A stretch of DNA of 35,712 bases from Treponema sp. (GTDB lineage: Bacteria; Spirochaetota; Spirochaetia; Treponematales; Breznakiellaceae), in assembly GCA_031281025.1 (NCBI GenBank), contig JAITFY010000002.1:1-35712 (forward strand). Reading direction: 5' to 3'. Positions 5,431 through 27,921 of this stretch are shown in pieces (positions within the stretch are counted from its first letter, which is position 1; each line of letters opens with the position of its first letter). Below the pieces are notes generated by a model. That model saw nothing but the letters and a program-made list of their open reading frames with translations. It did no database searches and was not told where the DNA came from. The position numbers and the translations under genes were made by a program.

Positions 5431-5724
5431 ATGGCTTTTATAGACGAATATGATTTTCACATGTTAAAAAACGAAGCAGAAAATTTAGTGCTCCGTGAAA
5501 TGGAATTCCAGTTAAAATCCGGTCATGAAAACATGTGCAGTTGCAACGAATGTATTGTAGATATTGCGGCAATTGCATTGAATTTAGTTAAACCAATGTA
5601 CCGTTTTTCTTTGCTTGGAACCCTTTACATGCAGGCTATTTCAGAAAAAGCATATGCAGACAGTATCAAAGAAGCTGTAAAACAGGCAATCGCTAAGGTT
5701 AAGAAAAATCCGGCTCACGATTAA
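5431..5724 (+). CDS. ComFB-family protein
   Basis: This 97-residue protein matches the late-competence ComFB family: an N-terminal helix (FHMLKNEAENLVLREMEFQL), the cysteine cluster MCSCNECIVDIAAIALN with Cys36, Cys38 and Cys41, and VKPMYRF. Family members bind zinc through such cysteines. Some cyanobacterial members have been described as cyclic-di-GMP receptors; whether this spirochaete copy binds a nucleotide cannot be told. GGGGG precedes the ATG, 21 nt after dnaB, so it is probably the last gene of the operon. It faces the - strand beta-propeller gene 29 bp away. Confidence 0.8.
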   Translation: MAFIDEYDFHMLKNEAENLVLREMEFQLKSGHENMCSCNECIVDIAAIALNLVKPMYRFSLLGTLYMQAISEKAYADSIKEAVKQAIAKVKKNPAHD

Positions 5725-9469: not shown

Positions 9470-9485
9470 AATAATTCCTGTATAT

Positions 9486-9514
9486 ATTCTACCATAAACC
9501 TTCTTTTTTGACGA
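9486..9514 (-). promoter_or_regulatory. Candidate rseP promoter
   Basis: TCGTCA (9509-9514), a 17-bp spacer and TAGAAT (9486-9491) on the - strand. It would start transcription about 10 nt before rseP. It is back to back with the response-regulator promoter, with 21 bp between the two -35 boxes. Confidence 0.5.
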
Positions 9515-9535
9515 TAGGGTAAATTATACATATTA

Positions 9536-9564
9536 TTGACAAACATTTGGTGTTATTGTAGAAT
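9536..9564 (+). promoter_or_regulatory. Promoter of the pseudo-HPt response regulator
   Basis: A perfect TTGACA (9536-9541), an ideal 17-bp spacer and TAGAAT (9559-9564). It is the best sigma-70 promoter match in the window, so this gene may be strongly expressed. The start codon lies 25 nt after the -10. Confidence 0.7.
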
Positions 9565-9588
9565 ATAGCTAAATATGGGGTGTAGTAC

Positions 9589-10464
9589 ATGAAAGATATA
9601 AACAGTAAAAACTTTGATCTATTAACTCTCTTAAAATTGGGAGACTTGGACATTAGGAGTATATCCGAGGACTTTGATACATTATCAGTTAAAGAATACT
9701 TCAATTTGTTGTCGGATTTTTTTGAACTTGCGCCGGTTGCTATAAGTGCTCTGGATAAAATTGTAGGTTTAAATGCCGAAAAAGATTCTTTTAAAAGCCT
9801 AAAAGACATGAAAAATCTTTTAAGGAGCCTGGGTTATAATAAGTGCACTCCCGTCATTGAAGGTATCCTTAATGCAAGTGAAAAGGGCAACATGGACCTT
9901 GCTGCCGACTGGGCAAAAAAATTCTTTGGCGATTTTAAAAGGTTGTATACCCGGACATTAACAGCTGTTAAAAAAGAATACGCATATTCTTACACAAGCA
10001 ATGTTGAAAATGTGAATTATCTTGAAACTTATGGAACACAAAATTTAAAAGTAGCTCTGGAACAGATAGACAATGGAGAAGCTACCCGCAAGCTGCGAAT
10101 TCTGGCAGTTGACGATGCTCCAGTTATGCTAAAAACAATTTCTTCCACACTAGGTACCGAATATAAAGTGTATACACTTTCTAATTCAATGATGGTTGAA
10201 TCGTTTTTACAACAGGTTACACCGGAACTGTTTTTGCTTGATTATAAAATGCCGGGTCTTAACGGTTTTGATCTTATCCCCATTATACGGAACTTTGAAG
10301 AACATAAAGATACCCCAATTATTTTCCTTACATCTGTGGGAACAAGCGACAATGTGTCTGCCGCCGCAATGCTTGGAGCGAGCGACTTTATAATAAAGCC
10401 GTTTCAGGGAAATATTTTACGGGAAAAAATTGCAAAACACATCGTAAGAAAAAAAACGTTTTAA
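9589..10464 (+). CDS. Response regulator with an N-terminal HPt-like domain lacking the histidine
   Basis: Residues ~168-291 are a complete receiver: acidic pair Asp175-Asp176, phospho-acceptor Asp218 (FLLDYKMPG), Thr248 (FLTSVG) and Lys270 (IIKPF). Residues 1-~135 are all-helical. The stretch LKDMKNLLRSLG (71-82), followed by ~18 residues and EKGN, aligns with VHSMKGSLANIG ... DNGD of the HPt domains in the neighbouring kinases, with Lys72 where the phospho-histidine should be. The first 238 residues contain no histidine at all, so phosphotransfer through this domain is impossible. There is no DNA-binding or enzymatic output. It is alone on the + strand under a strong promoter and its stop overlaps the K5 stop by 4 nt, tail to tail. 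A role as phosphate sink, decoy or adaptor is inference. Confidence 0.85.
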   Translation: MKDINSKNFDLLTLLKLGDLDIRSISEDFDTLSVKEYFNLLSDFFELAPVAISALDKIVGLNAEKDSFKSLKDMKNLLRSLGYNKCTPVIEGILNASEKGNMDLAADWAKKFFGDFKRLYTRTLTAVKKEYAYSYTSNVENVNYLETYGTQNLKVALEQIDNGEATRKLRILAVDDAPVMLKTISSTLGTEYKVYTLSNSMMVESFLQQVTPELFLLDYKMPGLNGFDLIPIIRNFEEHKDTPIIFLTSVGTSDNVSAAAMLGASDFIIKPFQGNILREKIAKHIVRKKTF

Positions 10465-13400
10465 ACCAGCTTTTGCATCACTTCCAGGGCTTCGTTATAA
10501 TCCGTTATCATTACTGCATCTCTTATTTTCTCAAGTTCTTCTTCCAGTGTTTCACCGGTATTAATGCTACCAAGTTCTTCCATACATTCATCAATAGCCA
10601 AAAAATTAGAATCTGCGAATGCAGTTCTTAGTTTTTCAAAAATGGATTTTAGCATCTCTGACGTTTCGGGTGTTATCTCCAGCCGGCCTTTGAACCGGGA
10701 TTCTTCTGCAAAAGCTTCTTCAAGGTCTTTTTTTAAGTTTCCAAGATTCTCCAAAAATTGCGGCAGCCCGGAAGTACAGAATGATGAATCGCCATTATCG
10801 GCTGCAGTTTCAAGTTCGAATGCCCGCTTGGAAAGTTCCATTACGCCAATGTTGGCAAGAGAACCTTTCATACTATGAACCTCTATAGAAAAGTTTCGCA
10901 AATCATTAGATGCCAAAAATGTTTTAAGGTTTCTGTCGCATTTTTCAATTTCCTTTATTGTCAGTTTAAATGACTTTTCAAGTACATCCCGCTGGCCGGA
11001 AACCCTGTCAAGCCCAGTCTCTACCGAAAGTCCTTTTATTTGTTCAACCTTCTGCCAAAACCTTGCAACTGCGGGTTTTTTATTACCATTTCTGATAATT
11101 GATTCATTCGTTATTATGTTAACTTTTTCTTGAGGAAGCCAGAACAGGAGCAGTTGATTTAATAAAGATTTATTAATGGGTTTATTTAGTAAATCGTCCA
11201 TACCGGCGGCGATATATTCTTCCCTTGCGCCTGCAATGGCATTGGCGGTAAGAGCAATTATAGGCAACTTAAAACCTGTTTCGCGAAGTATTTTTGTGGC
11301 TTCTATACCATCCATTTCCGGCATCATATGATCCATAAAAACAAGGTCGTAATTGTTTTCACGAATCATTTTTATTGCCTGCTTGCCGGAAGAAGCTGTT
11401 TCTGCGTTTATTTTGCACAAACCCAAAAGCCCGGAAGCAACATTTAAATTAATGGAATTATCATCAACAACCAGTATTTTTGCATTTGGTGCGTATAGGA
11501 AGTTTTCGCTGTTTGATGTTTTATGAACCAGAGATTCATCACCGAAAACTTTTGGGATTGTAATATGAAATGCAGAACCCTCACCAAGTATGCTTTTTAC
11601 TGATATTTGAGCGCCCATTTGATCCAGTAATGATTTGGTTATGGAAAGTCCAAGACCTGTTCCTTCTTTGCCGCGGGTTATCTGTGTGTTAACCTGCATA
11701 AAGGCATTAAAGAGAATAGGTATTTCGTCTTCCGGTATACCTATACCAGTATCGTTGATCCTAAAGTGAATGTTTGTATCATCAGAGCTGATGTTGAAAG
11801 TCACTGAACCTTCGTCTGTAAATTTTATTGCATTACCCAGTATATTCAGAAGCACCTGTCTTAACCGCACATCATCTCCATATAAAAAACGGGGAAGATC
11901 ATTTTCTGTGATAAACTTGAAAATTACATTTTTATCTTTTAATAAAAAATGTACCATCGATTTGATATTGTCAATTAAGATATAGAAATCGTAGTGTATC
12001 GGCTGAAGATAAAAATTTCCGGATTGTATTTTTGAGAAATCCAAAATATCATTGATAATATTTACAAGCGCCAAAGCGGATACATGGATATCTTTAACAC
12101 AACGAAGCTGGCTAGAATCCATTTTTTCCAGAAGCAGCAAGTCCGACATTCCGATAATCGCATTCATGGGAGTGCGGATTTCGTGGCTCATGGTAGCTAA
12201 AAACTGGCTTTTTGCTTTGCTGCCTTCTTCGGCTATGGCATGGGCAACACGCAGTTCGCCGCTGATAAGCGAAAGCGCCCATAAATCGGCAAGCGAGGAA
12301 GCGAAATTTTGTTCTTCTATGGTCCAGTCACGTTTATCAGTATATTTCCCAAAACTGGTCTGCTCAATGCCGATTAACCCTGCCAATTTACCATCAATGT
12401 ATATGGGGATGTCAAGCGAAGCAGAAATATCGGGGTGATCGTAACCATCACCTGCGAACTCAGGCCATAAAAGGGATTTTTTTACATCATGTGTTATAAT
12501 CAGGCGTTCAGTTGTCAGAAGTTTATGAAATGTTTTTTTTCTTGATAAGTCAACATCATCCTGGATAATGAATTCTTTGGTAGAAGCATGATAACAAGAG
12601 ATGCTTTTAAGAATATCTCCCTCTTCTGATATGCTCCATACTGCAACACGGCTGGTGTTTAAGGCGCTGCATCCTTCCAGTGCAATCATTTCGGCGGCGT
12701 CTTTTAATATCCCTGCAGAAATAATCGGCGACCTTGTTATTCTTGCCAATGTGCCGGTAAGTTTATTTGCGTAGTCATAACTGCTCATCATTTTACGTTT
12801 TTCATTATTTCTCATTAATATGATTGTTCCGCAAACAAATATAATAAAAATCATGGAAGCAACGCCTATTATCCACGGCCTCTGTGCTTCTACCAGCATT
12901 ACACGGTAGTCGTATGTTTTGCGTACCCATTGTCCCGTTATTGCCCTGATGTTAATCAGAGCAAGCGCTTTGTCAACGATAGAGCGCAGAATAAAAGCGT
13001 CTTTATGAAAACCAAATGTAGATGCCAAAGTATTTTCGAATACAAAATTGATTTTATAACCCGGTTGTTCCTGAAAATTTGTAAGATGCAAAAGACTATT
13101 AGTGCTTGACATTACCATGTCAATATCACCGTTTGTTAAGGCTTTTAAAAGATTAAACTGATTGTCATACTCTATGGTATTTCTATGAGTGGGAAACCAC
13201 CTGCGAAACATTTCTGCATGACCAGTTCCTGTATGCACTCCTACTCTTACAGATAAAATTTCATTAAAAGTAATATCGTTATGGTCTATTTTGGATATAA
13301 GCGCAGATTGATCTGTTAAAACTATGGTGTTCGCCCATAAAAAATGGCCTTCCCGGTCCTGAGTATGGAGTAATTCTGAGATAATTTGCGCATCTCCGTT

Positions 13401-14483
13401 TTCGAGTACTTTAATCAATGCATGCCAATCAGTATATTGATCGTTGACAAGTACAAATTCAAGCCCTGTAAGTTCTTCCACTTTTTTAAGAACGTCAAAG
13501 CAAATTCCCTGCCACTGTCTTTCGCGGGTGTTGAAAAAACTCATCGGGTAATTGTCGATTTCGGCTGCAAATGGTACAGTGGAATTGTTTTTTATATATT
13601 CAAACTCTTCTTCGGTAAGCCGCATTAACAACTTGTTCTGTATATATTCCTGGTAACCTTGATTGTAAAATTCGTTTAAAGAACGGGTTGCGTTGTTTTC
13701 CAGCGCTTTTTGGATAACAGAAATAAACGGCTCAAGATCGGGATTTTGCGTTGTAAAGGAAACAGGGCTGTAAACAAGCGGTAAGAAATTCATTATCGCA
13801 ATATCATCAAAAATATCAAAAACTTCCTCATTTGAAGCTTCGGCAAGAAGAGCATCGACTTTTCCGGCTTTCATTAGTTCATACACTTCGGTGAATTCAG
13901 ATACTAATATAAGTTCAAATGGTTCCATTGCATTATACAAAACATCGTTAACAGTTGTAGTTCCCGAAAGAATTGCGTATCGCGGTAAACGGGTTTCTCT
14001 GATTTCCTGCAGGGGAGTGCTGTTTACAAGCCGGATATATATTATAGAGCGCTGGGCTATGGCATCAGTCATAAAATATGAACGTAGGCGTGTTTCAGTT
14101 TTAGTAAGGTCTCCTGTAAAGTCAATATCGTGGGTTCTTAACCCATCAATTAAATAAGTCCATGAAAAAAGTTCAGGTAAGAATTGAATATCAAATAATT
14201 TTGTCAGCCAATCACAGAAAATGGCTGTAAATCCTCTTACATCGCCGTCCACACTGCGAAATGCCTCAGTGCCAGTCAGCATCCCGTAAATAAAGAACTC
14301 CCTGTTTTTCTTTATCGCTTCTATTGCGTCAATTTCTTCGCTGGTTACACCAGGGATGTCACGATACGAAGAAAAAACTGGTGTTTTAATGGGTGGTGGT
14401 TTACTCGCATTATTACAAGATGTAAATATAAAAAGTAACAATATTACAAATAAAAAATAACCTAATAGATGCTTTTTTTTCAT
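10461..14483 (-). CDS. Hybrid histidine kinase K5: two solute-binding domains-TM-GAF-HisKA-HATPase-REC-HPt
   Basis: This 1340-residue phosphorelay kinase has a signal or anchor ending FIFTSC. Two SBP_bac_3 domains follow (~50-290 and ~300-530; GFTAIFCDWL and IDFTG are family-like), presumably in the periplasm. A membrane helix lies at ~537-560, then a GAF domain to ~745. HisKA has His767 in MSHEIRTPMN. HATPase has the N box (NILGNAIKFT), DTGIGIP and GTGLGLSI. REC has Asp1051 in MDHMMPEMDG, HPt has His1203 in VHSMKGS, and a helical tail ends the protein. All catalytic residues are present. It is last in the operon, starting on ATGA of K4 with AGAGG before the ATG. Its sensor is a clear paralogue of K2. 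An amino-acid-like ligand is suggested by the SBP family only. Confidence 0.92.
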   Translation of the reverse strand: MKKKHLLGYFLFVILLLFIFTSCNNASKPPPIKTPVFSSYRDIPGVTSEEIDAIEAIKKNREFFIYGMLTGTEAFRSVDGDVRGFTAIFCDWLTKLFDIQFLPELFSWTYLIDGLRTHDIDFTGDLTKTETRLRSYFMTDAIAQRSIIYIRLVNSTPLQEIRETRLPRYAILSGTTTVNDVLYNAMEPFELILVSEFTEVYELMKAGKVDALLAEASNEEVFDIFDDIAIMNFLPLVYSPVSFTTQNPDLEPFISVIQKALENNATRSLNEFYNQGYQEYIQNKLLMRLTEEEFEYIKNNSTVPFAAEIDNYPMSFFNTRERQWQGICFDVLKKVEELTGLEFVLVNDQYTDWHALIKVLENGDAQIISELLHTQDREGHFLWANTIVLTDQSALISKIDHNDITFNEILSVRVGVHTGTGHAEMFRRWFPTHRNTIEYDNQFNLLKALTNGDIDMVMSSTNSLLHLTNFQEQPGYKINFVFENTLASTFGFHKDAFILRSIVDKALALINIRAITGQWVRKTYDYRVMLVEAQRPWIIGVASMIFIIFVCGTIILMRNNEKRKMMSSYDYANKLTGTLARITRSPIISAGILKDAAEMIALEGCSALNTSRVAVWSISEEGDILKSISCYHASTKEFIIQDDVDLSRKKTFHKLLTTERLIITHDVKKSLLWPEFAGDGYDHPDISASLDIPIYIDGKLAGLIGIEQTSFGKYTDKRDWTIEEQNFASSLADLWALSLISGELRVAHAIAEEGSKAKSQFLATMSHEIRTPMNAIIGMSDLLLLEKMDSSQLRCVKDIHVSALALVNIINDILDFSKIQSGNFYLQPIHYDFYILIDNIKSMVHFLLKDKNVIFKFITENDLPRFLYGDDVRLRQVLLNILGNAIKFTDEGSVTFNISSDDTNIHFRINDTGIGIPEDEIPILFNAFMQVNTQITRGKEGTGLGLSITKSLLDQMGAQISVKSILGEGSAFHITIPKVFGDESLVHKTSNSENFLYAPNAKILVVDDNSINLNVASGLLGLCKINAETASSGKQAIKMIRENNYDLVFMDHMMPEMDGIEATKILRETGFKLPIIALTANAIAGAREEYIAAGMDDLLNKPINKSLLNQLLLFWLPQEKVNIITNESIIRNGNKKPAVARFWQKVEQIKGLSVETGLDRVSGQRDVLEKSFKLTIKEIEKCDRNLKTFLASNDLRNFSIEVHSMKGSLANIGVMELSKRAFELETAADNGDSSFCTSGLPQFLENLGNLKKDLEEAFAEESRFKGRLEITPETSEMLKSIFEKLRTAFADSNFLAIDECMEELGSINTGETLEEELEKIRDAVMITDYNEALEVMQKLV

Positions 14484-17400
14484 TTAATTACCTCTTTTGT
14501 GAACATTTCCATCATTTTCGCAGCGCCTTCATAATCTACCATCATGATGGCATCCTTTAAATTTTCTATTTTCTCTTTTAATGCACTGTCAGGATTAAGA
14601 GAGTCCAGTTCTTCCATACTTTCATCAATAGCCAAAAAATCAGGCATGACAAATGCTGCTGTTAGTTTTTTAAAAATAGCTGACAAGAGGGCAGACATCT
14701 CGGATGTTATTTCAATTGGGCCCTGGTGTATGGGTTTCTGTGAAAAAGCTTCGACAAGATCGTTTTTTAAAAGTCTAAGCTCTTCCAAAAACGGCGGTGT
14801 ATTTAATATACAAAAATTTAAATCCTCTTTGTCGGCGAAAGTTTCAAGTTCCAGCGCCTTTGCAGATAGTTCCATAACGCCTATGTTGGCCAGCGTACCT
14901 TTCATGCTGTGTACTTCTATAGAGAAATTATGTATATCATTGGAAGCCAAAAACATATTTAGGTTTTTATCGCACTTTTCAATTTCCATTATCGTTAGAT
15001 GCAGTGATTTTTCGTAAACATCACGCTGGTCGGAAACCCTGTCCAATCCTGTTTCTGTGCAAAGCCCTTTAATCTGTTCAACTTTTTGCCAGAATTTCGT
15101 AGATGTTTCATCATGCATTACAATTTCGTTATAAGATGTTTCACCCAGTATTATATTCAGTTTTTCTGAGGGAAGCCAGTCTCTGAGCATTTTACTTAAA
15201 AGCGACTTTTTAATTGGCTTTGTCAACAAGTCGTTCATGCCGGCTGCCAAAAATTCTTCTTTTGCGCCTGTTATAACATTGGCGGTAAGTGCAATTATCG
15301 GTAATGTAAAACCTGCATTGCGAATTTCCTTTGTGGTTTCTACACCATCAATTTCCGGCATCATGTGATCCATAAAAATGAGGTCGTATTGTTTGTTTTT
15401 GATCATCTCAATTGCCTGCTTGCCGGAAGATGCTGTTTCTGCGTTTATTTCGTACAAACGTAAAAGCCCGGTTGCAACATTTAAATTGATCGTATTGTCA
15501 TCCACAACAAGTATCTCTGCGTCCGGAGCACGAACTTTAATTTCGTTGCCGTCTGTCTGGAGAATCAGGTTTTCATTGCCTAAAACTTTTGGGATTGTCA
15601 CATGGAAAATTGAACCTTGACCATACACACTTTCCACTAATATACTGCCATCCATCAATTCTAGTAATGTTTTGGTAATTGAAAGCCCAAGGCCTGTACC
15701 TTCCTGGCTGCGATTTTTTGACATGTCTACCTGCATAAAGGCATTAAAGAGTATGGGGATATCATTTTCCGGTATGCCAATGCCTGTATCGCTTATTGTA
15801 AAATCGATGTTTGAATTTGTAGCGCTGATGGAAAAATGTACAGAGCCTTTGGCGGTAAATTTAATTGCATTGCCGATTATATTAAGGAGTATCTGCCTGA
15901 GACGGACATCATCTCCATAAAGACAAGCGGGGAGTTCTCCTCTAATATCCATCGTAAAAGTCAGTTTTTTATTTTTAATCAGAAACCGTGCTGTTGAGTT
16001 TATATTAACAAGAAACATAATAAAATCATAATGTATTGGAACAATGTCCAATTTACCAGACTGTATTTTAGAAAAATCCAGGATGTCATTGATAATATTC
16101 AATAATGCCTGAGCGGATACATGAATATCACGGACATAGTCATGCTGCGCTGATTCAAGGTTTCCGTCCGAAAGCAACAAATCTGATATACCGATAATCG
16201 CATTCATGGGTGTACGGATTTCGTGGCTCATGTTCGCCAGGAATTTGCTTTTTGCCCTGTTGCTTTCTTCGGCAATTTCCGCCCTTCGCATCTCCTCTAT
16301 CATTGCTTTTTGTTCACGTAAATCCCTGATATAGACTGCAATTATATTTTCATCCTTGTAATGAAGGCGGACAAGCGTAATTTCGCAGGGTAAAAGTTCA
16401 CCATCAAATTTTTTGCCCAGCCATTCAAATCGCTGGTAATTCTGCTTAAAAGTTTTTTCAATAACCTCCATAATCAATTCCATTGAGCGCCGTCCGCAAG
16501 GCTGGAATATCGGCGAAAAATCTTCAATTTTTGTCTTATAGTATTCGCCGGTATACCCGAACATTTTTGAGGTTTCCTTGTTTGAATCGATGATTTCCAA
16601 GTTCTTGTTAACCAGGAAACAGGAAATAGGGATGGCATCAATCATAATGCGCATACGTTTTTCCGCTGCTTCTGTCTGTGAAAGAGCTGAGCTCAAGCGA
16701 AAGGTTGTATCCTGTAAGTTATTAACAGTTTCGTTGCGAAGTAAGGCGCTGGCAAGCAATACACTGCCAGAGCGCAGAATTGCTTCTTCTTCATTGGTAA
16801 ATATCCTCTCTCTGGAGCAATCATCAAAACCTACTAACCCCCAGAATTTTTCTTTTATAAATACAGGCACTAGCAAAATGGATATAATGCCTTGAGGAGC
16901 TAAATGCTCCTGTTCTTGTTTAGGCAAATCAGACACTATACTGTTAATACAATATCCGCTAGAAAGTTCTTTTTCCCATCTGGAAATATTATCGCCATAA
17001 GATATGCCATGCGCAAAATCCTTATCCTGTTGTGGTTCTACGTTTTCCGACCATTCGAATAATTGCCTGCAATAAAGTTGATCTTCAAACATGAAATTTT
17101 TCCAGATATACATGCGGTCAACTTCAGCAGCCTCGGCTATTGCTTTCATGGCCAGGAATAAGGTTTGATTAAAGTTATCTGTTTCTGAGTTGAGCAAAAA
17201 CGATGCTGCGCTATTTACCGAGTTTAACATTTTTTGATTGTGTTCAAGTTTATTCTGTTGCAGTTTGGTTTCGGTTATATCCATCAGAGCACCTGCGACA
17301 CGAACAGCATTACCGTTTTCGTCGCGAATGGTTTCGCCGGATGCGCGGTAATATCCGTATTCGCCGTTTTTCTTTAATAACCGGTATTCTACGTCGTAAG

Positions 17401-18136: not shown

Positions 18137-18141
18137 AATTT

Positions 18142-18146
18142 CCTCC
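18142..18146 (-). promoter_or_regulatory. Ribosome binding site that fixes the K4 start
   Basis: GGAGG lies 5 nt before the GTG at 18136. The upstream in-frame GTG at 18148 overlaps this site and has no Shine-Dalgarno of its own. Confidence 0.7.
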
Positions 18147-18168
18147 ACATTAGTTGTAACTTCCTATT

Positions 18169-20541
18169 TTATTTTGCAATTTCTGGTATGCAATTTATCA
18201 TTACTTCCAGAGCTTCTTTATAATCCATAATCATAACGGCGTCCTTAATTTTTTCGATTTCTTCCTGCAGTGTGCCGCCTGGATTAAGGGTGTCTAGTCT
18301 TGCAATTTCTTCATCTATGACTGTAAAATTAGAATCATTTAAAGCATCTTTTAGTATTTTTAAAATTGCCGCCAGTTCCGACAGTAATTCAGGCGTGACT
18401 TCGGGCGGAACCATGGGTTGGGTATTATCCGCAAAGGCCTTTATAAGGTTTTGTTTTAATTTGTCAAGTTCTTTTAGAAAGGCAGGCATTTGGGCAGCGC
18501 AAAAAACAGCATCCTTGTTATCGGCTGCAGTTTCCAATTTGTATGCCAGGCCGGACAGCGCCATTACACCTATGTTGGCAAGCGAACCTTTCATGCTGTG
18601 TACCTCTATGGAAAAGCTGCGCATATTTTCTGCTTCCAAAAAAACATTAAGGTTTTTAACGCATTTTTCAATTTCCTTAATCGTTAACTTTAATGACTTT
18701 TTATACACATCCCGCTGACCAGATACTCTTTCAAGCCCAATTTCTAAAGAAAGCCCTTCTATTTGTTCGACTCTCCGCCAAAATTCTTCAGTAACAGGAT
18801 TCTCATCCCCATCGGCAAAAACTGCTTCATCCTCCAACAAGAAAACTTTTTCGCTAGGAAGCCATGTTTTAAGTATCTGGCTTAATAATGATTTGCTAAT
18901 GGGTTTAGTCAGCATATCGTCCATACCGGCATTAACAAATTCTTCTTTTGCGCCTATTATTACATTTGCGGTAAGGGCAATAATGGGCAGTTTTACACCC
19001 ATTTCACGAATGATTTTTGTAGCTTCTATGCCGTCCATTTCCGGCATCATGTGATCCATAAATACGAGATCATAGTGATTTTTACTAATCATCTCTATCG
19101 CTTGTGAACCGCTTAAAGCTGTCTGAGCTTCTATTTTATAGAGTTGTAAAAGCCCTGTGGCGACATTCAAATTGATTGAATTATCATCAACAACAAGTAT
19201 CTTAACATCGGGAGCAATTATTGCGATTTCCTCGTTCCCCAACTGCTGAATTAAAGCTTCATCGCCTAATATTTTTGGAATTTTCACACTAAAGGTAGTG
19301 CCCTTACCGTACTCGCTGTCTACGCTTATACTGCCGTTCATCATCTCAACCAATGTTTTTGTAATCGACAAACCAAGTCCGGTTCCTTCCTGGCTGCGGT
19401 TTTTTTTCATGTCCACCTGTAAAAAGGCGTCAAAAAGTATTGGAATCTCGGATTTTGGTATACCTATACCGGTATCACTTATTACAAAAGTGATACTTGT
19501 ATCATCTGCGCTGATAATCAGGCTTACAGTTCCTTTTTTTGTAAACTTGATTGCATTACCCAGAATATTTAGAATTACCTGCCTAAGGCGGACATCATCA
19601 CCATACAGGCAGGCAGGGCACTCTCCCTCTGTTAACATATTAAAACTAATGTCTTTTTCCATGATTAAAAAATGTGTTACTGAATCTATATTGTCAAGAA
19701 ATAAATTAAAATCATAATGAACAGGAACAAGTTCCAGTTTTTCTGTCTGAATTTTTGAGAGATCTAAAATATCGTTAATGATTTTAAGGAGCGCTATAGC
19801 TGAAACATGGATATCCTTGACACTGCGATGTTGATTTGAAGTCATGTTTTCCGAAAGCAGAAGTTCCGACATACCTACAATTGCATTCATTGGCGTGCGG
19901 ATTTCGTGGCTCATGTTTGCTAAAAACTTTGACTGGGTAGCAGTTGCATGTTCAGCTTCCATAAGCGCCTTGTCTTCGGCAATTTTCATTTTTATATGAA
20001 AATATTTAATTAAAATGGATTTAACAAAAGAAGCTGTAAAAAGCATTGGAAAGCGTAACATAAATGTTTGTGTATAATAATCGCTTACTATACTGTTTAA
20101 AGGCGTCCAAAAAAGAACAATAAAAAATATTAGAAAAAAGCCGGAAACGATTATGCCAAAACCAAACCCAATAACCTGCATTATAAATGGCGTGAATAAA
20201 AGAGTCCACAGAATCGCAAAGCCGTCATTCCCGCCTGTCAGCGTAAAAAATATACAAATCGATGATAATATAAAACAAAGCGTTGGTGCGACTATCTTTC
20301 TTGTTCTAAAAATCCTGCTAAAAATAAAAACAATAAACAAAGTCAACATTAATACTGTTGTTGCAATCAGCATTTCATATTGTTGATGTCTGAAATTCAT
20401 GTAGCTCATAAAAAAAGCAATGATCGAAGCCGTTAAAGAAACAAGACCAATAGCTTTTATTTTCTGCTGCAATTGATTTTCATCAAATTCATTATATTTA
20501 ATAATTTCGATTATATTAATTATATATTTTTTAATATTCAT
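18169..20541 (-). CDS. Membrane hybrid histidine kinase K3: 6-TM sensor-HisKA-HATPase-REC-HPt
   Basis: The 790-residue kinase starts with about six hydrophobic helices (roughly residues 31-48, 57-75, 84-101, 108-124, 126-145, 161-179) with very short loops, so it probably senses a membrane or hydrophobic signal. The transmitter follows: His212 in MSHEIRTPMN, GNAIKFT, DTGIGIP, GTGLGLSI, receiver Asp496 in MDHMMPEMDG, HPt His648 in VHSMKGS, and the helical tail. The frame opens at a TTG (20553) that is only 1 nt from a GGAG, too close to use. The ATG at 20541, 13 nt from that GGAG and 4 nt after the K2 stop, is the better start. I do not recognise the membrane domain as a named sensor family. 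Confidence 0.9.
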   Translation of the reverse strand: MNIKKYIINIIEIIKYNEFDENQLQQKIKAIGLVSLTASIIAFFMSYMNFRHQQYEMLIATTVLMLTLFIVFIFSRIFRTRKIVAPTLCFILSSICIFFTLTGGNDGFAILWTLLFTPFIMQVIGFGFGIIVSGFFLIFFIVLFWTPLNSIVSDYYTQTFMLRFPMLFTASFVKSILIKYFHIKMKIAEDKALMEAEHATATQSKFLANMSHEIRTPMNAIVGMSELLLSENMTSNQHRSVKDIHVSAIALLKIINDILDLSKIQTEKLELVPVHYDFNLFLDNIDSVTHFLIMEKDISFNMLTEGECPACLYGDDVRLRQVILNILGNAIKFTKKGTVSLIISADDTSITFVISDTGIGIPKSEIPILFDAFLQVDMKKNRSQEGTGLGLSITKTLVEMMNGSISVDSEYGKGTTFSVKIPKILGDEALIQQLGNEEIAIIAPDVKILVVDDNSINLNVATGLLQLYKIEAQTALSGSQAIEMISKNHYDLVFMDHMMPEMDGIEATKIIREMGVKLPIIALTANVIIGAKEEFVNAGMDDMLTKPISKSLLSQILKTWLPSEKVFLLEDEAVFADGDENPVTEEFWRRVEQIEGLSLEIGLERVSGQRDVYKKSLKLTIKEIEKCVKNLNVFLEAENMRSFSIEVHSMKGSLANIGVMALSGLAYKLETAADNKDAVFCAAQMPAFLKELDKLKQNLIKAFADNTQPMVPPEVTPELLSELAAILKILKDALNDSNFTVIDEEIARLDTLNPGGTLQEEIEKIKDAVMIMDYKEALEVMINCIPEIAK

Positions 20542-20545
20542 ATCA

Positions 20546-23500
20546 TTAATCAATCTCCGGCAAACACTTTGCCATTATAACCATTGCCTCTTCATAATCC
20601 ATAACTGTAACAGCATCTTTTATTTTTTCTACTTCCTCATAAAGCGAGCCGCTTAAATTTAGAGTGTCAAGGTCTATTATCGCTTCGTCTATGAGAATAA
20701 GATCAGTCTCTTTAAAAGCGTTTTTTAGCTTATCAAAAATGGCTGCTGTTTTTGCCTGTAGTTCTGGCGTCACTTCAGGTTGTTCCAGAGATGAGGTGTT
20801 ATCCGCAAAGGCCTTTACAAGGCTTTGTTTTAACTTGTCAAGTTCTTTTAAAAAGACAGGCATTTGGGCGGCGCAAAAAGCAGCATCCTTGTTATCGGCT
20901 GCAGTTTCCATCTTGTATGCCAGTTCGGATAGCTCAATTACACCAATGTTGGACAGCGAACCTTTCATACTGTGTACTTCTATGGAAAAGTTATGCATAT
21001 CACCGGCAGCCAGGAACTCTCTTAAATTATTATCGCATTTTATAATTTCCTTTATCGTTAACCGTAATAATTTTTCAAATAAATCCAACTGGCCGTAAAC
21101 CCTTTCAAGACCTGTTTCCACAGAGAGTCCTTCTATCTGTTTAATTTGTTCCCATAACGCTGTTTTTATTTCTTTGCTTGCCGTATTAACGGCGGACATT
21201 TCTTTTGATGTTATGGTAAGTTTTTCTACAGGGAGCCAATCTTTGAGTATTTGATTCAGTTGTATTTTATTAATCGGCTTGGTCAGTAAATCGTTCATGC
21301 CTGCTTCGATATATTCATTCTTTACACCTATAATAGCGTTAGCGGTAAAAGCCACTATTGGCATGACTGCGCCCATTTCGCGGATTATTTTTACAGTTTC
21401 TACGCCATCCATTTCCGGCATCATGTGATCCATAAATACAAGATCGTATTGGTTTTTACTGATCATTTTGATTGCTTCTTTGCCGCTGGAGGCTGTTTCG
21501 GCATCTATGCCGCATAAACCCAAAAGCCCGGAAGCAACATTCAAATTAATTGTATTATCATCAACAACCAGAATTTTTGCATCCGGTGCGTATACGTTTT
21601 CTGTATCGCTTGTTATTTTGTGTATAAGTGTTTCATTACCCGGAATTTTTGGGATTGTTACACAGAATACCGAACCCTTACCATAGACGCTTTCTACAGT
21701 AATTTCTCCGTCCATTTGATCCAATAAAGACTTGGTTATAGAAAGCCCAAGACCGGTTCCTCCTGTGCCTCGTATATTTTGTTTGTTGGCCTGCGTAAAG
21801 GCATCAAAAAGTGTGGGTAATTCTTCTTCCTGTATACCTATGCCGGTATCGCTAACCTTAAAATGAATGTGTTTATCGTCTGCACTGATAGTTAATTGCA
21901 CAAAACCTTCGTTGGTGAATTTGATTGCATTACCAAGAATATTCAGAAGCACCTGCCTAAGCCGGACATCATCCCCATAAAGACAAGAGGGGAAATTTTC
22001 CTCTGTAATAAGCTTAAAGTTTATATCTTTATTCTTGAGTAAAAATTGTATCATTGAATTGATATTGCCAATAAAAACCTTAAAATCGTAGTGTACAGGC
22101 AAAAGGCTAAAGTTACCGGACTGCACTTTGGAAAAATCCAGGATGTCATTGATAATATTTACAAGCGCCATGGCGGAAGTATAAATATCCTTGACACAAC
22201 GAAGCTGGCTTGAATCCATTTTTTCCGAAAGCAAAAGTTCCGACATACCGATAATTGCATTCATTGGCGTACGAATTTCGTGGCTCATGGCGGCAAGAAA
22301 AGTGGACTTTGCAAGGCTTGCTGTCTCGGCGGCATCTCGCGCTGCGCTGCGCTCGGCGCTGGAGAATGCAAGCGCCATTAAATCGGCAAGTGAAGAAGAG
22401 AAGTTCCGTTCTTCCATTTTCCAGCCGCGCATATCCGGGAATTCTTTGCAGCGCTCCTGTTCAATGCAAACCGTTCCTGCCAACTTGCCGTCGATGCGTA
22501 TGGGAATATCAATTATAGCGCAAAGGTTAGAATTATAATTGCCTGCAAAATTTGAAAATACATCGGAAGTTCTGACATTATTGGCGATAACCAGGCGTTC
22601 GGTTTCCAAAAGTTTTGCATATTTTTCGGCTTTTTTTAAATCAAAATCATTTTGATTTAAAAATTCTTTTGTAGAGGTAAGATAAGAGGAGATGTTTTTT
22701 AGGGTATCTCCTTCTTCATTTATGCTCCATACCCCAACTCGGCTTGCATTCAAAGCGGTGCCCCCTTCCTGAACAATCATATCGGCGGCATCTTTTAAAA
22801 CTCCGGCGGAAATAACAGGGGATTTTGTTATTTTTCCCAATGCGGCGCTTAGCTTATCTGCATATTTATACCTGGACATCATTCTGTGTTTTTGAATGTT
22901 TCTCATGAAAATGATTGTTAGGAAGACAAAAGTGAAAAAAATCATAGAGGCTACGCCAATTATCCATGGTCTTTGCGCTTGTGCCAGCATTAAACGGTAA
23001 TCATAGGTTTTGCGCAGCCATCGCTCTGATACGGTTTCGATATCTGTCATTCTTAGCGCTTTATCTACGATAGAACGCAGAACAGTTTGATCTCTGTTAA
23101 AACCAAATGTGGATTCAAAAATGTTATTAAATACGATATTGACTTTATAATCGGGAAGTTCCTCGTAATGCGTAAGCTGTAGGAGAATATTTGTTTTGTT
23201 CATTACCATGTCAACATCACCGCGCGTTAAAGCTCTAAGAGCAGCGTCTGTCGTGTCGAATTCTACGGTGTTTCTGTGATCCGGAAACCACATGTGGAAT
23301 AAATCGGTATGAATGAGGCCTTTGGTTAATCCTACTCGCACGGATAAAACATCATGAATGCTGATGTCAGGGAAATCCATTCTGGATAAAAGCGCAGACC
23401 GGTCTGTCAAAAAAAAAGTATCTGTCCAGGAAAAGCGCAGTTCCCGTTCCGGCGAACGGAGTAATTCGGTAATTAAATAGGCCTGTTCATTCTCAAGCAT

Positions 23501-24553
23501 CCTGAGTAATTCAGGCAATTCTTTATCGGGAGCATTAATAATTTTAAATTCAAGCCCAGTCAGAAATTCTACTTCTTTTAATATGTCCAGGGATATTCCT
23601 TGCCATTCTTTTTCACGGGTATTAAAAAAACTTACAGGGTAATTATCGAATCCAGCTACAAGCGGTATTATGGGATTACCATAAATGTAATCATTTTCTT
23701 CATTTGTTAGCTGCATAAACAGTTTGTGGTTCATATATTCCCGGTAACCCTGATTGTATAGTTCGCCTAAGTACTGGCCTGCATTGTTTTCCAGCGCTTT
23801 TTGCATAACAGAGATAACCGGCATTAGCTCCGGTCTTGTTGTCATAAGTGAAGTAGGAAGATACAATAGCGGTAAAACATCCGATACTACAACACCGCCA
23901 AAAACATCAAAAAGAGCTTCTGCAGGGCCCTCTGCGATAACGGAGTCAATTACTCCCGATTCCAAAAGCGCAAAGCCGTCTGTATATTCTTCTAAAATGA
24001 CAAGTTCAAATTCTTCGGGAAGATAAGTTGGAATCCTGTCCAGAAGAATTCCTCCTCGTAAAAGCCCGTATCGCGGAAGGCGCGTTTTCATAATTTCTGA
24101 AAGAGGAACGCTGTCAGGAAGCCGCATATGTTTTACCGTACGCCGTGCAATTGCATCGGTCATAAAATATATTTTACGGCGTTCTTCGGTTGGCGCCATA
24201 GTGCCGGTAAAATCGACGGCTCCATTCTCAAAACCTTCAAGCAGTTCATTCCAGGTGACAAGCGTGGGAACAAACGGAATTCCGAATAATTCGGTAAGCC
24301 ACTGGCAAATGAGAGCCGTGAATCCTCTAATTTCGCCATATTTATTTAAAAATGCCTCGGTGTATGGCATCATTGCATAAACAAAAAAATCAGTTTTTTC
24401 CTTAAGAGCTTCTATCTGGGTTATTTCTTCGCTGGTTACACCGGGAATATCAAGGTACGAAGAAAAAACCGGCCCCTCAAAAGGTTGCGATCTGTTTGAA
24501 TCTATACAATTAGAAAAAACAAGCAAAAGCAGCATTAATGAAATAAGCTTCAT
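20546..24553 (-). CDS. Hybrid histidine kinase K2: two solute-binding domains-TM-GAF-HisKA-HATPase-REC-HPt
   Basis: The 1335-residue protein has the same architecture as K5: a signal with LVFSNC (Cys16 a possible lipid site), two SBP_bac_3 domains (~40-285 and ~290-520), a membrane helix near 529-552, GAF, HisKA with His758, HATPase, REC with Asp1042, HPt with His1194 and a helical tail. The two sensors are diverged: for example FSSYLDIPGVTSEEI is nearly shared with K5, but many ligand-pocket residues differ, so they may bind different solutes. The ATP-lid motif reads DTGIGIQ instead of DTGIGIP, a mild change. GGAG precedes the ATG, which overlaps the K1 stop as ATGA. Its last ~150 residues resemble K3 more than K5 (see findings). 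Confidence 0.92.
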   Translation of the reverse strand: MKLISLMLLLLVFSNCIDSNRSQPFEGPVFSSYLDIPGVTSEEITQIEALKEKTDFFVYAMMPYTEAFLNKYGEIRGFTALICQWLTELFGIPFVPTLVTWNELLEGFENGAVDFTGTMAPTEERRKIYFMTDAIARRTVKHMRLPDSVPLSEIMKTRLPRYGLLRGGILLDRIPTYLPEEFELVILEEYTDGFALLESGVIDSVIAEGPAEALFDVFGGVVVSDVLPLLYLPTSLMTTRPELMPVISVMQKALENNAGQYLGELYNQGYREYMNHKLFMQLTNEENDYIYGNPIIPLVAGFDNYPVSFFNTREKEWQGISLDILKEVEFLTGLEFKIINAPDKELPELLRMLENEQAYLITELLRSPERELRFSWTDTFFLTDRSALLSRMDFPDISIHDVLSVRVGLTKGLIHTDLFHMWFPDHRNTVEFDTTDAALRALTRGDVDMVMNKTNILLQLTHYEELPDYKVNIVFNNIFESTFGFNRDQTVLRSIVDKALRMTDIETVSERWLRKTYDYRLMLAQAQRPWIIGVASMIFFTFVFLTIIFMRNIQKHRMMSRYKYADKLSAALGKITKSPVISAGVLKDAADMIVQEGGTALNASRVGVWSINEEGDTLKNISSYLTSTKEFLNQNDFDLKKAEKYAKLLETERLVIANNVRTSDVFSNFAGNYNSNLCAIIDIPIRIDGKLAGTVCIEQERCKEFPDMRGWKMEERNFSSSLADLMALAFSSAERSAARDAAETASLAKSTFLAAMSHEIRTPMNAIIGMSELLLSEKMDSSQLRCVKDIYTSAMALVNIINDILDFSKVQSGNFSLLPVHYDFKVFIGNINSMIQFLLKNKDINFKLITEENFPSCLYGDDVRLRQVLLNILGNAIKFTNEGFVQLTISADDKHIHFKVSDTGIGIQEEELPTLFDAFTQANKQNIRGTGGTGLGLSITKSLLDQMDGEITVESVYGKGSVFCVTIPKIPGNETLIHKITSDTENVYAPDAKILVVDDNTINLNVASGLLGLCGIDAETASSGKEAIKMISKNQYDLVFMDHMMPEMDGVETVKIIREMGAVMPIVAFTANAIIGVKNEYIEAGMNDLLTKPINKIQLNQILKDWLPVEKLTITSKEMSAVNTASKEIKTALWEQIKQIEGLSVETGLERVYGQLDLFEKLLRLTIKEIIKCDNNLREFLAAGDMHNFSIEVHSMKGSLSNIGVIELSELAYKMETAADNKDAAFCAAQMPVFLKELDKLKQSLVKAFADNTSSLEQPEVTPELQAKTAAIFDKLKNAFKETDLILIDEAIIDLDTLNLSGSLYEEVEKIKDAVTVMDYEEAMVIMAKCLPEID

Positions 24554-26787
24554 TTAATAATCTCCATACATTTTTGAATTATGTCCACCGCTACTTCGTA
24601 ATCCATTACAAGAACAGCATCTTTTATTTTTTCTATTTCCTCTTGAAGCGCGCTGCCTGGTTTTAGGGCGCTCAAGTTTGCCATCCCTGTATCTATGGCC
24701 AAGAAATCATTGTTGTCAAAAGCTGCTTTTAGCGTTTCTAAAATTGTTGTAAACTCTGTTGTTAGCTCTGCTGTTAATTCGACTGATATTTCCTGAGGAT
24801 TCAAAGAAGATTCTTTTTCTTCAAAAGAATTAATCAGACTTGTTTTTAGAGCCGTAAGCTCATCCAGAAATGGCTGTAGTTTTTCATTGCAAAAAAGCAT
24901 GTCTGCATTATTGCCTGCAACTTCAAGCGCAGAAGCCTGCATGGCAAGTTCCATAACGCCTATGTTGGCAAGCGTTCCTTTCATGCTATGCACTTCTATG
25001 GTAAAATTTCGCATATCACCTGATGCCAGGAAAACACTCAGGTTTTTATCGCATTTTTCTATTCCCTTAATTGTAAGCTTAAGTGATTTTTCAAATATAT
25101 CACGCTGGCCGGATACCCTGTCAAGCCCTGTCTCCAAAGAAAGCCCTTTTATTTTTTCTATTTTCTGCCAAAATTCATTTGTTGCAGGTGATTCATTCAT
25201 ATTTGCGGTAATTTTTTCTTCCTCCAGCATAATAATTTTTTCTGGCGGAAGCCAGGTCTTGAGTGTCTGGCTAAGCAATGACCTGTTAATTGGTTTACTC
25301 ATAAAATCGTTGACGCCAATGGCGTAAAACTCTTCCTTTGCACTCGTCATGACATTTGCAGTAAGGGCAATAATTGGAATGGTAATACCCATTTCCCGGA
25401 TGATTTTTGTAGCTTCTATACCATCCATTTCAGGCATCATGTGATCCATGAATATAAGGTCGTAATGATTGCTGCCAATCATATCTATCGCCTGCCGGCC
25501 GCTTATGGCAGTTTCTGCATTTATTTTGTAGAGCTTTAAAAGCCCGCAGGCGACATTCAAATTAATTGAATTATCGTCTACTACAAGAATTTTTACATCG
25601 GGCGCGCTTATATTGATTTCGTCAACGCCCGGCTGCACAATTCTTGCTTCGTCTCCCAAAACTTTTGGGATTGTAATATGGAATACCGTCCCCTTGCCAT
25701 ATTGGCTTTCTACCGATATTTTGCCGCCCATTATATCAAGCAATGACTTTGTTATGGACAGACCAAGACCTGTTCCTTCCTGGCTGCGATTCCTGCGCAT
25801 ATCCGCCTGTGAAAAAGCGTCAAAAAGCTTTGGGATGTATTTTTCCTCAATGCCCATGCCGGTATCGGCAATTACAAAGTTGATGCTTGTATCTGTAGTG
25901 CTGATAGTAAGTTGTACAGAACCTTTTTTTGTAAATTTAACTGCATTGCCCAGTATATTCAAAAGCACTTGTCTTAGCCGGATATCATCTCCATAAAGGC
26001 ATTTGGGAAGATCGTTCTGAGTTAAAAGGTTAAAGACAATATCCTCATCTTTGTTTTTAATGAGGAAATTAACCATAGAGCTGATATTGTCAACTAAAAG
26101 GAGAAAATCATAATGATCGTATACAAGTTCCAGTTTACCGGCCTGAATTTTGGAAATTTCCAGAATATCATTGATAATTTCCAGCAGGGCAACAGCGGAT
26201 ACATGAATGTCCCGGACACAGCCAAACTGGTTTGGATTCAGGTCTTCCGTAAGCAGCAGTTCCGACATGCCGACAATCGCATTCATTGGGGTTCGGATTT
26301 CGTGGCTCATTGTTGCAAGGAAAATAGACTTTGTATGGGCTGTAGCTTCTACTTCTATTAACGCATTTTGTAAATTACTATTTAAAAGTTCTATGGTTCG
26401 GATTTGGTTAACAATACGCAGCTGATTTTCTATTCTTAATTTAATTATCGATTTTTTAAATGGTTTATAAATATAGTCAGCAGCTCCAAGTTCCAGCCCT
26501 CTTTCTTCGCTTTCTTTGTCGCCAAGCCCTGTAAGAAAGATAACTGGGATATTTTTTGTGTTTTCGAATTCTTTTAACACAACAAGCACTTCATATCCAT
26601 TTAAATCGGGCATAATAATATCAAGAAGAATTATATCGGGTAAATATTTTTTTGCTGCTTCAATGGCGCTTTTTCCGTTTTTTGCTGCATGAATTCTATA
26701 ATCTGTTTGTAATATATGGGTTAGTGCAATTATATTAGATGAATCATCATCAACTATAAGTACGCTGTTTTTTTTTATTTCATCCAC
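24550..26787 (-). CDS. Hybrid histidine kinase K1: REC-HisKA-HATPase-REC-HPt
   Basis: The 745-residue protein is cytoplasmic. Its input is a receiver (residues ~7-125, Asp56 in ILLDIIMPD, IFLTG, Lys107-type YKPF), so it takes phosphate from another kinase or HPt rather than a chemical ligand. The transmitter follows: His162, GNAVKFT, DTGMGIE, GTGLGLSI, receiver 2 with Asp448, HPt with His600 and a helical tail. The frame starts at a GTG inside the end of the HD-GYP gene (8-nt overlap) with GGAG 13 nt upstream. Its receiver input and position right behind the HD-GYP gene make it a candidate integrator of the other four kinases; this is inference. Confidence 0.92.
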   Translation of the reverse strand: MDEIKKNSVLIVDDDSSNIIALTHILQTDYRIHAAKNGKSAIEAAKKYLPDIILLDIIMPDLNGYEVLVVLKEFENTKNIPVIFLTGLGDKESEERGLELGAADYIYKPFKKSIIKLRIENQLRIVNQIRTIELLNSNLQNALIEVEATAHTKSIFLATMSHEIRTPMNAIVGMSELLLTEDLNPNQFGCVRDIHVSAVALLEIINDILEISKIQAGKLELVYDHYDFLLLVDNISSMVNFLIKNKDEDIVFNLLTQNDLPKCLYGDDIRLRQVLLNILGNAVKFTKKGSVQLTISTTDTSINFVIADTGMGIEEKYIPKLFDAFSQADMRRNRSQEGTGLGLSITKSLLDIMGGKISVESQYGKGTVFHITIPKVLGDEARIVQPGVDEINISAPDVKILVVDDNSINLNVACGLLKLYKINAETAISGRQAIDMIGSNHYDLIFMDHMMPEMDGIEATKIIREMGITIPIIALTANVMTSAKEEFYAIGVNDFMSKPINRSLLSQTLKTWLPPEKIIMLEEEKITANMNESPATNEFWQKIEKIKGLSLETGLDRVSGQRDIFEKSLKLTIKGIEKCDKNLSVFLASGDMRNFTIEVHSMKGTLANIGVMELAMQASALEVAGNNADMLFCNEKLQPFLDELTALKTSLINSFEEKESSLNPQEISVELTAELTTEFTTILETLKAAFDNNDFLAIDTGMANLSALKPGSALQEEIEKIKDAVLVMDYEVAVDIIQKCMEIIK

Positions 26788-27883
26788 TGCTGCTTATTTT
26801 CTCCTTTGTTTGTTTAGCACTGCTTACTTTTTTTATCTCGTCAGACAAGGTTAGAAATAAATCTGTTAAATCAGGATCAAACTGTGTGCCGCCTCCTTCC
26901 GAAATAATTTTCATGGCTTCCTCGTGGGAAAAAGCTTTTTTATATGGACGCTCCGAAACTAGCGCATCGTATACATCTGCAAGAGACATCATTCTGGCCT
27001 GCAGCGGAATCTTATCGCCTTTTAAACCATCTGGATAACCGGTTCCATCCCATTTTTCATGGTGGCTATATGAAAGAGTTTTTGCATAATTTAAAAAAGT
27101 TTGGTTTGGTACTTTGTCTTGCAGGCTGTCCAGCAGCATTTTTCCGTGTTTAACATGGAGTTTCATGTTTTCAAATTCTTCTTCTGTGAGCTTATCTTTT
27201 TTTAATAAAATATCATCGCGAATTTTTATTTTACCAACATCATGAAGGGGGGCGGATTTAATAAAAGCTTCAATATCCCAGGATGAAACTTCGGCAGCAT
27301 ACAATTTGTGGTTTTCCATTGCACCCAACAGCAGCTGCAGGTATTGCTGAACACGCTCTACATGGTGGCCCGTTTCTTCGTCCCTAAACTCAACCATTTC
27401 TGAAGTCCAGGCAATAATTGCATTTTGCAGTTGATTTATGTCATTTGTCCGTTCATTAACCTTGACAGTAAGGCTGTCATTAAAAGTTTGCAACTCGTTT
27501 TTTTGCGATTGCAAAAGCAAATGCATTTCTATTCGTTTGATTAAAAGTGACGGCGAGAAAGGTTTGCTTATATAATCAACAGCACCAAGAGAGAGCCCCA
27601 AAAGCTCGTTTTCGGGTTCTCCTTTTCCGGTTAAAAATATTACAGGAATTTCTGCAGTTTCGGGGTTGGCTTTTATTTCTTTTATTGCATCATATCCGCT
27701 CATACCTGGCATTTCCACGTCAAGCAGTATTAAAGCAGGTTTGGTTTTTGATAAAATTTCCAGCAGTTTTATCCCCGAAGGTATGGTAACTGTGGTATAA
27801 CTATCCTTTAAAATGGCCTTTCCCATATTCAGGTATACAGGATTGTCGTCTACTAAAAAAATACAATTGTTTTGATCTTTCAT
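26780..27883 (-). CDS. REC-HD-GYP response regulator (cyclic-di-GMP phosphodiesterase)
   Basis: The 367-residue protein has a receiver (1-~122: Asp12-Asp13, Asp55 in ILLDVEMPG, Thr85, Lys107) and a short coiled linker (~123-160). An HD-GYP domain follows with all hallmark residues: His173, His214-Asp215 (LHDVGKIKI), His243/His246, HHEKWDGTGYP at 274-284, and SLADVYDAL. HD-GYP enzymes hydrolyse cyclic-di-GMP, often fully to GMP, using a two- or three-metal site. Phosphorylation of Asp55 should control activity. It is the first gene of the kinase operon, so it is the obvious local output. No Shine-Dalgarno precedes the ATG. Confidence 0.93.
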   Translation of the reverse strand: MKDQNNCIFLVDDNPVYLNMGKAILKDSYTTVTIPSGIKLLEILSKTKPALILLDVEMPGMSGYDAIKEIKANPETAEIPVIFLTGKGEPENELLGLSLGAVDYISKPFSPSLLIKRIEMHLLLQSQKNELQTFNDSLTVKVNERTNDINQLQNAIIAWTSEMVEFRDEETGHHVERVQQYLQLLLGAMENHKLYAAEVSSWDIEAFIKSAPLHDVGKIKIRDDILLKKDKLTEEEFENMKLHVKHGKMLLDSLQDKVPNQTFLNYAKTLSYSHHEKWDGTGYPDGLKGDKIPLQARMMSLADVYDALVSERPYKKAFSHEEAMKIISEGGGTQFDPDLTDLFLTLSDEIKKVSSAKQTKEKISSSG

Positions 27884-27889
27884 TATATA

Positions 27890-27918
27890 ATAATATGTTA
27901 GATTGGCAAAAAAAACAA
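27890..27918 (-). promoter_or_regulatory. Candidate promoter of the kinase operon
   Basis: TTGTTT (27913-27918), a 17-bp spacer and TATTAT (27890-27895) on the - strand, in the 38 bp between dxr and the HD-GYP gene. Transcription would start almost at the ATG (27883). No terminator separates the operon from dxr, so read-through is also possible. Confidence 0.45.
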
Positions 27919-27921
27919 TGA

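Follow-up and report, generated by a model that had tools for sequence, protein, structure and literature searches.

Five related HPt-ending hybrid kinases beside a REC-HD-GYP gene in Treponema: a probable lineage-specific expansion of a common module

We describe a gene block from a draft genome of Treponema sp. (NCBI GenBank assembly GCA_031281025.1, contig JAITFY010000002.1, positions 1 to 35,712) that encodes a receiver (REC) joined to an HD-GYP domain, five hybrid histidine kinases (K1 to K5) that all end in a histidine phosphotransfer (HPt) domain, and a further receiver protein, R. The window is the whole stretch of 35,712 nucleotides (nt) that was analyzed. The block is an RpfC/RpfG-like module in which HPt kinases with swapped sensors have multiplied to an extreme degree; of the sampled genomes, only this one showed a five-fold expansion. 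By sequence comparison, the transmitter cassettes of K1 to K5 share common descent. We favor, with moderate confidence, a lineage-specific origin: a module common in treponemes, consisting of a REC-HD-GYP gene and an HPt-ending hybrid kinase, would have expanded here, so that five sensors would charge the shared outputs HD-GYP, R and the front receiver of K1. The block offers a natural sensor-swapping experiment on how far HPt partner choice stays fixed as inputs change, and it points to an unnoticed treponeme receiver protein that has an HPt-like, histidine-free domain and occurs beside HPt genes.

The five kinases and their shared cassette

The block occupies positions 9470..27921 of the window, between an rseP-type M50 protease gene (8339-9469, minus strand) and dxr (27922-29049). 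Its features are as follows (aa, amino acids).

26780..27883, minus strand: REC-HD-GYP, 367 aa; receiver Asp55; predicted cyclic-di-GMP phosphodiesterase (Pfam REC and HD_5)
24550..26787, minus strand: K1, REC-HisKA-HATPase-REC-HPt-tail hybrid kinase, 745 aa; N-terminal receiver Asp56
20546..24553, minus strand: K2, two SBP_bac_3 stretches, membrane span (read by eye from the sequence), GAF, HisKA-HATPase-REC-HPt-tail; 1335 aa
18169..20553, minus strand: K3, hydrophobic input (sub-threshold MASE6 match), HisKA-HATPase-REC-HPt-tail; 794 aa
14480..18148, minus strand: K4, PAS-PAS-GAF-PAS-HisKA-HATPase-REC-HPt-tail; 1222 aa
10461..14483, minus strand: K5, two SBP_bac_3 stretches, membrane span (read by eye from the sequence), GAF, HisKA-HATPase-REC-HPt-tail; 1340 aa
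9589..10464, plus strand: R, weakly HPt-like N-terminal domain without phospho-His, then C-terminal receiver (Asp218); 291 aa
9536..9564, plus strand: sigma-70-like promoter match, 11/12, 24 nt upstream of R (consensus scan only)

The initial annotation had described REC-HD-GYP and K1 to K5 as six tightly packed minus-strand genes, and the open reading frame (ORF) coordinates bear this out. With the longest starts, the genes overlap by 8, 4, 8 and 4 nt and the sole gap is one of 20 nt between K3 and K4; the gaps of 4 and 32 nt given earlier are obtained from later K3 and K4 starts. The end of K5 is overlapped tail to tail by the convergent gene R (4 nt). HisKA, HATPase_c, REC and Hpt were matched by Pfam in all five kinases, as had been proposed for their common ending; Hpt fell under the cut-off in K1 (24.2 vs 24.6 bits) and K4 (22.5 bits), and the phospho-His motif is intact in both. 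The distances from kinase His to receiver Asp (286, 284, 284, 285 and 284 residues in K1 to K5) and from that Asp to the HPt His (152, 152, 152, 153 and 152 residues) agree with the ranges of 284-286 and 152-153 first reported, and a conserved tail of about 73-81 residues extends beyond the HPt in every copy. Neither this tail nor gene R figured in the initial annotation. The inputs do differ in kind except in the K2/K5 pair, being REC in K1, SBP_bac_3 with GAF in K2 and K5, hydrophobic in K3 and PAS/PAS/GAF/PAS in K4. In the REC-HD-GYP protein, the HD-GYP part was aligned to the solved structures 4r8z and 4mcw, and the HDxGK, HHE and WDGTGYP-type motifs are kept.

When K3 was used as a query against its own genome, the four other cassettes matched at 60-64% identity over about 590-600 residues (747-801 bits), and the next-best kinase matched at 40% (325 bits). 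A 62-row tree of HPt-kinase cassettes placed K1 to K5 in one clade (support 99/94), the sister of which is the lone kinase next to the HD-GYP ortholog in genome G014 (100/97). Within the clade, K1 pairs with K3 (99/94) and K2 with K5 (100/99). Next outward are R-linked kinases of genomes G031 and G001, with weak support (81/44), and the kinase of L054, a locus from a record labelled Symbiobacteriaceae, lies outside these (100/98 for all nine). The inputs of K2 and K5 are 52% identical. Those of the sisters K1 and K3 are unrelated, so a change of input, in one or both, followed the split of their cassettes. Domain shuffling in two-component systems is termed rare in a study on myxobacteria (PMC4603909).

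Mean identity between the copies is 73% in HisKA, 72% in REC, 68% in HATPase, 62% in HPt, 45% in the tail and 42-49% in the linkers. Third codon positions are 47-56% identical, which indicates that the copies are old and have been held by protein-level selection. Recent gene conversion among the copies was considered and is unsupported, since no pair shares an exact DNA match of more than 32 nt. The K2 and K3 HPts are 74% identical, out of line with the whole-cassette tree, and the K2 and K5 HisKA domains are 88% identical. The order of events in the expansion is one that we infer.

The REC-HD-GYP module in other genomes

All of the searched genomes were drafts or incomplete to some degree. 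At E <= 1e-130, the HD-GYP protein was found in 5 of 39 genus genomes, namely the window's own and four relatives (71-75% identity). The initial annotation had proposed a search for the same gene set in relatives and stated that its absence from all of them would speak against a hub. On that criterion the set fails: not one of the 38 other genus genomes searched, many of them incomplete, yielded the five kinases together, although the base module survives. The HD-GYP ortholog runs of the four relatives hold zero to three kinases. In G014, one K-clade kinase (two solute-binding domains, PAS, GAF) overlaps the ortholog. The neighbors of the G007 ortholog are three hybrid kinases, of which the first is truncated at a contig end, and an R gene. 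The ortholog of G061 is followed by a stand-alone HPt-tail gene (L135), and a second HPt gene is also present. The contig stops on one side of the G024 ortholog, whose other neighbors, a histidine kinase gene and a REC gene, are on the opposite strand. At L054, the HD-GYP is 63% identical and is accompanied by one HPt kinase. The source genome itself has four further REC-HD-GYP genes with an adjoining hybrid kinase (C48, C71, C136 and C21, where the kinase is truncated by the contig end).

Runs of genes around HD-GYP were surveyed with home-made profiles under a rule of same strand and gaps <200 nt. Most of the genus loci were drawn from the best-ranked matches, and they are not exhaustive; the survey undercounts at contig or locus ends and where unmatched genes intervene (the G014 kinase is cut in L049). 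Among 41 HD-GYP runs (39 genus loci), HPt kinases numbered none in 16, one in 20, two in three, three in one and five in one, the window's. In another count, over 40 genus runs, 31 contained an HPt-bearing gene. Another 79 runs (78 named loci, L056-L133) comprised 25 without an HPt kinase, 54 with one and none with more. When any histidine kinase gene was counted, HPt or not, at least two were present in 21 of these 79 runs and five in one (L116, Rhodoferax; profile matches only). The unmatched feature is five HPt-ending kinases of one clade; long rows of histidine kinase genes beside HD-GYP are not unique.

One locus of G028 was missed by the run rule. At L284 (7751-16668, contig C166), three mutually related HPt hybrid kinases stand in a row upstream of a REC-HD-GYP gene. 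This is an independent, smaller expansion, and local kinase expansion beside HD-GYP has occurred more than once in the genus. A search of the literature by title and shown abstract returned no paper describing the layout of the present block.

The block combines traits of several known systems. RpfC/RpfG of Xanthomonas consists of a hybrid kinase ending in REC-HPt beside a REC-HD-GYP regulator. The block is like it in having REC fused to an HD-GYP with catalytic motifs and adjacent hybrid kinases with REC and HPt, but differs in having five HPt kinases rather than one, other sensors and, in addition, R. Pfam scans of 26 window ORFs gave no match to the diffusible signal factor synthase RpfF (crotonase fold), a search that did not extend to the rest of the genome. 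BvgS has two periplasmic solute-binding domains and a PAS domain before HisKA-HATPase-REC-HPt, with the DNA-binding BvgA as its neighbor. K2 and K5 resemble the BvgS/EvgS family in their tandem, putatively periplasmic solute-binding domains (two SBP_bac_3 stretches each) and in the order HisKA-HATPase-REC-HPt, whereas they carry GAF in place of PAS (no PAS match) and an extra tail after the HPt, and their neighbors are REC-HD-GYP and R where BvgS has BvgA. Many-to-one relays are known from KinA-E/Spo0F and from LuxN/LuxQ/CqsS, which feed LuxU. A similar convergence of several sensors on a small number of receivers is predicted here; unlike in those relays, the kinases belong to one clade, stand in one gene row and each have their own HPt.

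Proposed relay, receiver classes and gene R

The five inputs would be a phospho-receiver, periplasmic solutes (twice), the membrane and cytosolic PAS/GAF domains. Each kinase would autophosphorylate, and phosphate would pass from its His to the internal Asp and on to the HPt His. Phosphorelays run from His to Asp to His to Asp, and HD-GYP domains break down cyclic-di-GMP. The five similar HPts may then charge the same few receivers, namely HD-GYP Asp55, R Asp218 and K1 Asp56. Phosphorylation of Asp55 would switch the breakdown of cyclic-di-GMP, and a charged Asp56 may make K1 sensitive to the state of the pool. R could not donate phosphate, as its HPt-like domain has no histidine, and would perhaps most likely serve as a brake or sink by competing for receiver docking or by draining HPt phosphate.

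The receivers were compared in a tree of 120 sequences and 113 columns, which has many weak forks and is supported by the Shimodaira-Hasegawa-like approximate likelihood ratio test (SH-aLRT) only. HD-GYP and N-terminal receivers, including the front receiver of K1, group together (SH-aLRT 80), and the internal receivers of hybrid kinases form a separate group (89). R receivers make up a third group (84) and lie close to the receivers that partner the kinase clade next to K (86). The placement of the K1 front receiver with output receivers, and not with kinase-internal ones, fits its being charged like an output and lends some support to the earlier proposal that K1 acts as an integrator through this domain. 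A division into intermediary and terminal receivers is described in a published report (PMC9981736).

R comprises about 165 residues without a Pfam assignment, followed by the receiver. In hhalign comparisons, its N-terminus scored 24.2 against K-type HPts, with 200 column shuffles reaching at most 20.3 and 50 reversed controls at most 20.2. A PDB sequence search matched it to two CheA chains (E = 0.0078 and 0.017), which we take to be the HPt domain of CheA. In both alignments (CheA chains and K-type HPt), the phospho-His faces R residue 72, which is K, D, D, S, E, E, Q, E and S in nine R proteins (His in none of the nine, if the register is right). Two other origins of the N-terminus scored lower in hhalign and are not favored: a remnant of a receiver (14.3) and a duplicate of the kinase tail (19.5), vs 24.0 for HPt. 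These comparisons are suggestive, and R is plausibly a pseudo-HPt with a receiver attached to it. In plants, pseudo-HPt proteins are exemplified by AHP6, which has an HPt-like domain without the histidine. R would be like AHP6 in this respect and is unlike it in being bacterial and fused to a receiver, in the weakness of the similarity and in that its inhibitory role is putative. Among the matches listed for the pseudo-HPt literature, only plant papers appeared (by title or shown abstract).

R-type genes matching through the N-terminus at E <= 1e-30 number nine in the 39 genus genomes, the window's included, and the N-terminal profile of R occurs in 5 of 194 genomes of the order, again including the window's and one from another genus (G168). 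Each of the ten R-type genes whose surroundings were read has an HPt protein no more than one gene away (background rate of proximity not computed). The two are tail to tail in the window, G007 C18 and G007 C110. R stands in a row with a kinase in G031 C45 and G001 C114, after a stand-alone HPt in G031 C90 and fused behind an HPt in G025 C7. It is one gene away from the HPt protein in G007 C88 (HD-GYP ortholog between), G061 C111 (Hpt match under the Pfam cut-off) and G168 C8. R is probably a second, new output protein of the block. A bolder and rather unlikely proposal is that R represents a new bacterial regulator class, a pseudo-HPt-receiver fusion that rides with HPt kinases as a shared brake or phosphate sink and sets the gain of a phosphodiesterase fed by several sensors with swappable front ends.

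The initial annotation had envisaged a hub in which five sensors converge on one phosphodiesterase. In its favor are the recurrent pairing of HD-GYP and HPt genes in the genus, the stand-alone HPt of G061 and the correlated HD-GYP receiver and HPt distances given below, which largely reflect shared inheritance. The five-kinase set is unmatched, however. That the phosphodiesterase is the sole output is doubtful, since R is part of the block and adjoins HPt genes even where no complete REC-HD-GYP was seen next to R. The single-output hub is partly supported, as one option among several.

Several observations count against shared outputs in an expanded module with R as a pseudo-HPt protein. The copies are old by their third codon positions, so partner choice could have diverged. 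As many as five histidine kinase genes stand beside REC-HD-GYP elsewhere (L116), though only one of them has an HPt. For the distance comparison, 31 HD-GYP genes with an adjacent HPt gene were taken, four without a kinase domain were dropped and 27 were used, four of these pairs being from outside the genus. Distances of the HD-GYP receiver and the neighboring HPt were correlated at r = 0.88 and those of the HD-GYP domain and the HPt at r = 0.94 (0/2000 shuffles each), and those of the HPt and the kinase domain of its own protein at r = 0.72. With the HD-GYP domain controlled for, the partial correlation between receiver and HPt falls to just 0.17, so the correlation is mostly shared inheritance, which is evidence of joint travel and not of a matched interface; coevolution at an interface of HPt and HD-GYP receiver is not supported. 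The HPt match of R is weak (hhalign probability 10-13%), Pfam returned nothing of use on its N-terminus, and the best PDB match of that region is calmodulin (E = 0.0018), which we regard as spurious. Finally, no R was found in G014 at E <= 1e-30 despite the sister kinase and the HD-GYP ortholog there, so R is not required for the HD-GYP/kinase pair.

It is possible, if unlikely, that K-type cassettes have R rather than HD-GYP as their main cognate output, HD-GYP having been acquired as an additional target in a few lineages. Kinases 56-57% identical to the K3 cassette stand in a row with R in G031 (C45) and G001 (C114), and no HD-GYP appeared in the stretches read there, which span 6.4 and 19 kb, respectively. 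At G007 C18, R lies tail to tail with a gene whose product has a K-like HPt and tail, and a REC-GGDEF gene flanks R on its other side; the grouping of R receivers near the partners of the next kinase clade points the same way. In G014, by contrast, the sister kinase overlaps the HD-GYP ortholog in the genome where R was not found, and in the window it is HD-GYP that is co-directional with the kinases and overlaps K1 by 8 nt, while R is on the opposite strand. We consider it quite improbable that the five kinases are mutually insulated, each HPt serving its own distant receiver at a locus that merely collects duplicates. The age of the copies and the many other receivers in the genome would allow this, but the HPts are 58-74% identical pairwise with nearly the same stretch around the phospho-His in all five, the internal receivers are 63-77% identical, and an HPt-bearing gene shares a run with HD-GYP in most genus runs, as counted above.

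Three related arrangements were observed. At L220 (17129-18475, G025 C7), the HPt is fused to the R-type protein in the order HPt-RRn-REC. At L222 (5181-15999, G031 C90), three hybrid kinases with solute-binding domains stand in a row, with HPt undetected and the third cut by the locus end; they face an R gene preceded by a stand-alone HPt, which has the appearance of a parallel array with the HPt in trans. A REC-REC protein occurs in 13 of the 39 genus genomes at the threshold used (L173-L185, L188-L195), mostly beside genes with HPt matches and at some loci also beside REC-HD-GYP, and its second receiver groups near those of R.

Genomic location and cyclic-di-GMP context

The rseP-type protease was found at E <= 1e-30 in 35 other genus genomes, of which 34 were examined (the fragmented G004 was omitted). 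In 28 of the 31 relatives with room upstream (24/27 plus 4/4), dxr is its direct neighbor; the exceptions are G013, with two genes between, and G018 and G019, with no dxr in 9.1 and 1.7 kb upstream, respectively. G061, which has the closest protease (61%), shows a gap of 6 nt to dxr. The corresponding interval in the window is 18.45 kb, and its recognized genes are R, K5 to K1 and HD-GYP. Given the adjacency in relatives, the block appears to have been inserted as a unit together with R. That it was instead joined to the dxr-rseP string by metagenome misassembly is very improbable: the source genome is a draft (2.35 Mb, 175 contigs, 82% complete) and its junctions were not seen in any second genome, but the dxr-side junction is tight (38 nt) and co-directional with housekeeping genes, and the gene set itself is independent of the junctions. 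The protease is 376 aa in the window, about 390 aa in G061 and about 450 aa in most relatives, and the match to the longer relatives breaks mid-protein.

Promoter-like matches in the region number 75, compared with a mean of 56.9 in shuffles. One of these (27909-27882, 11/12) was rejected as a promoter of the HD-GYP gene, since it overlaps the start codon. No RNA families were found when the window was scanned at gathering scores.

The source genome has five GGDEF stretches and four PilZ stretches over the cut-off, so cyclic-di-GMP is probably both made and read by this organism. ComFB relatives have been reported as cyclic-di-GMP receptors. A ComFB-family protein (PF10719), a possible receptor, is encoded about 5 kb from the block (window 5431-5724, plus strand), at the end of an rpsF-ssb-rpsR-rplI-dnaB row.

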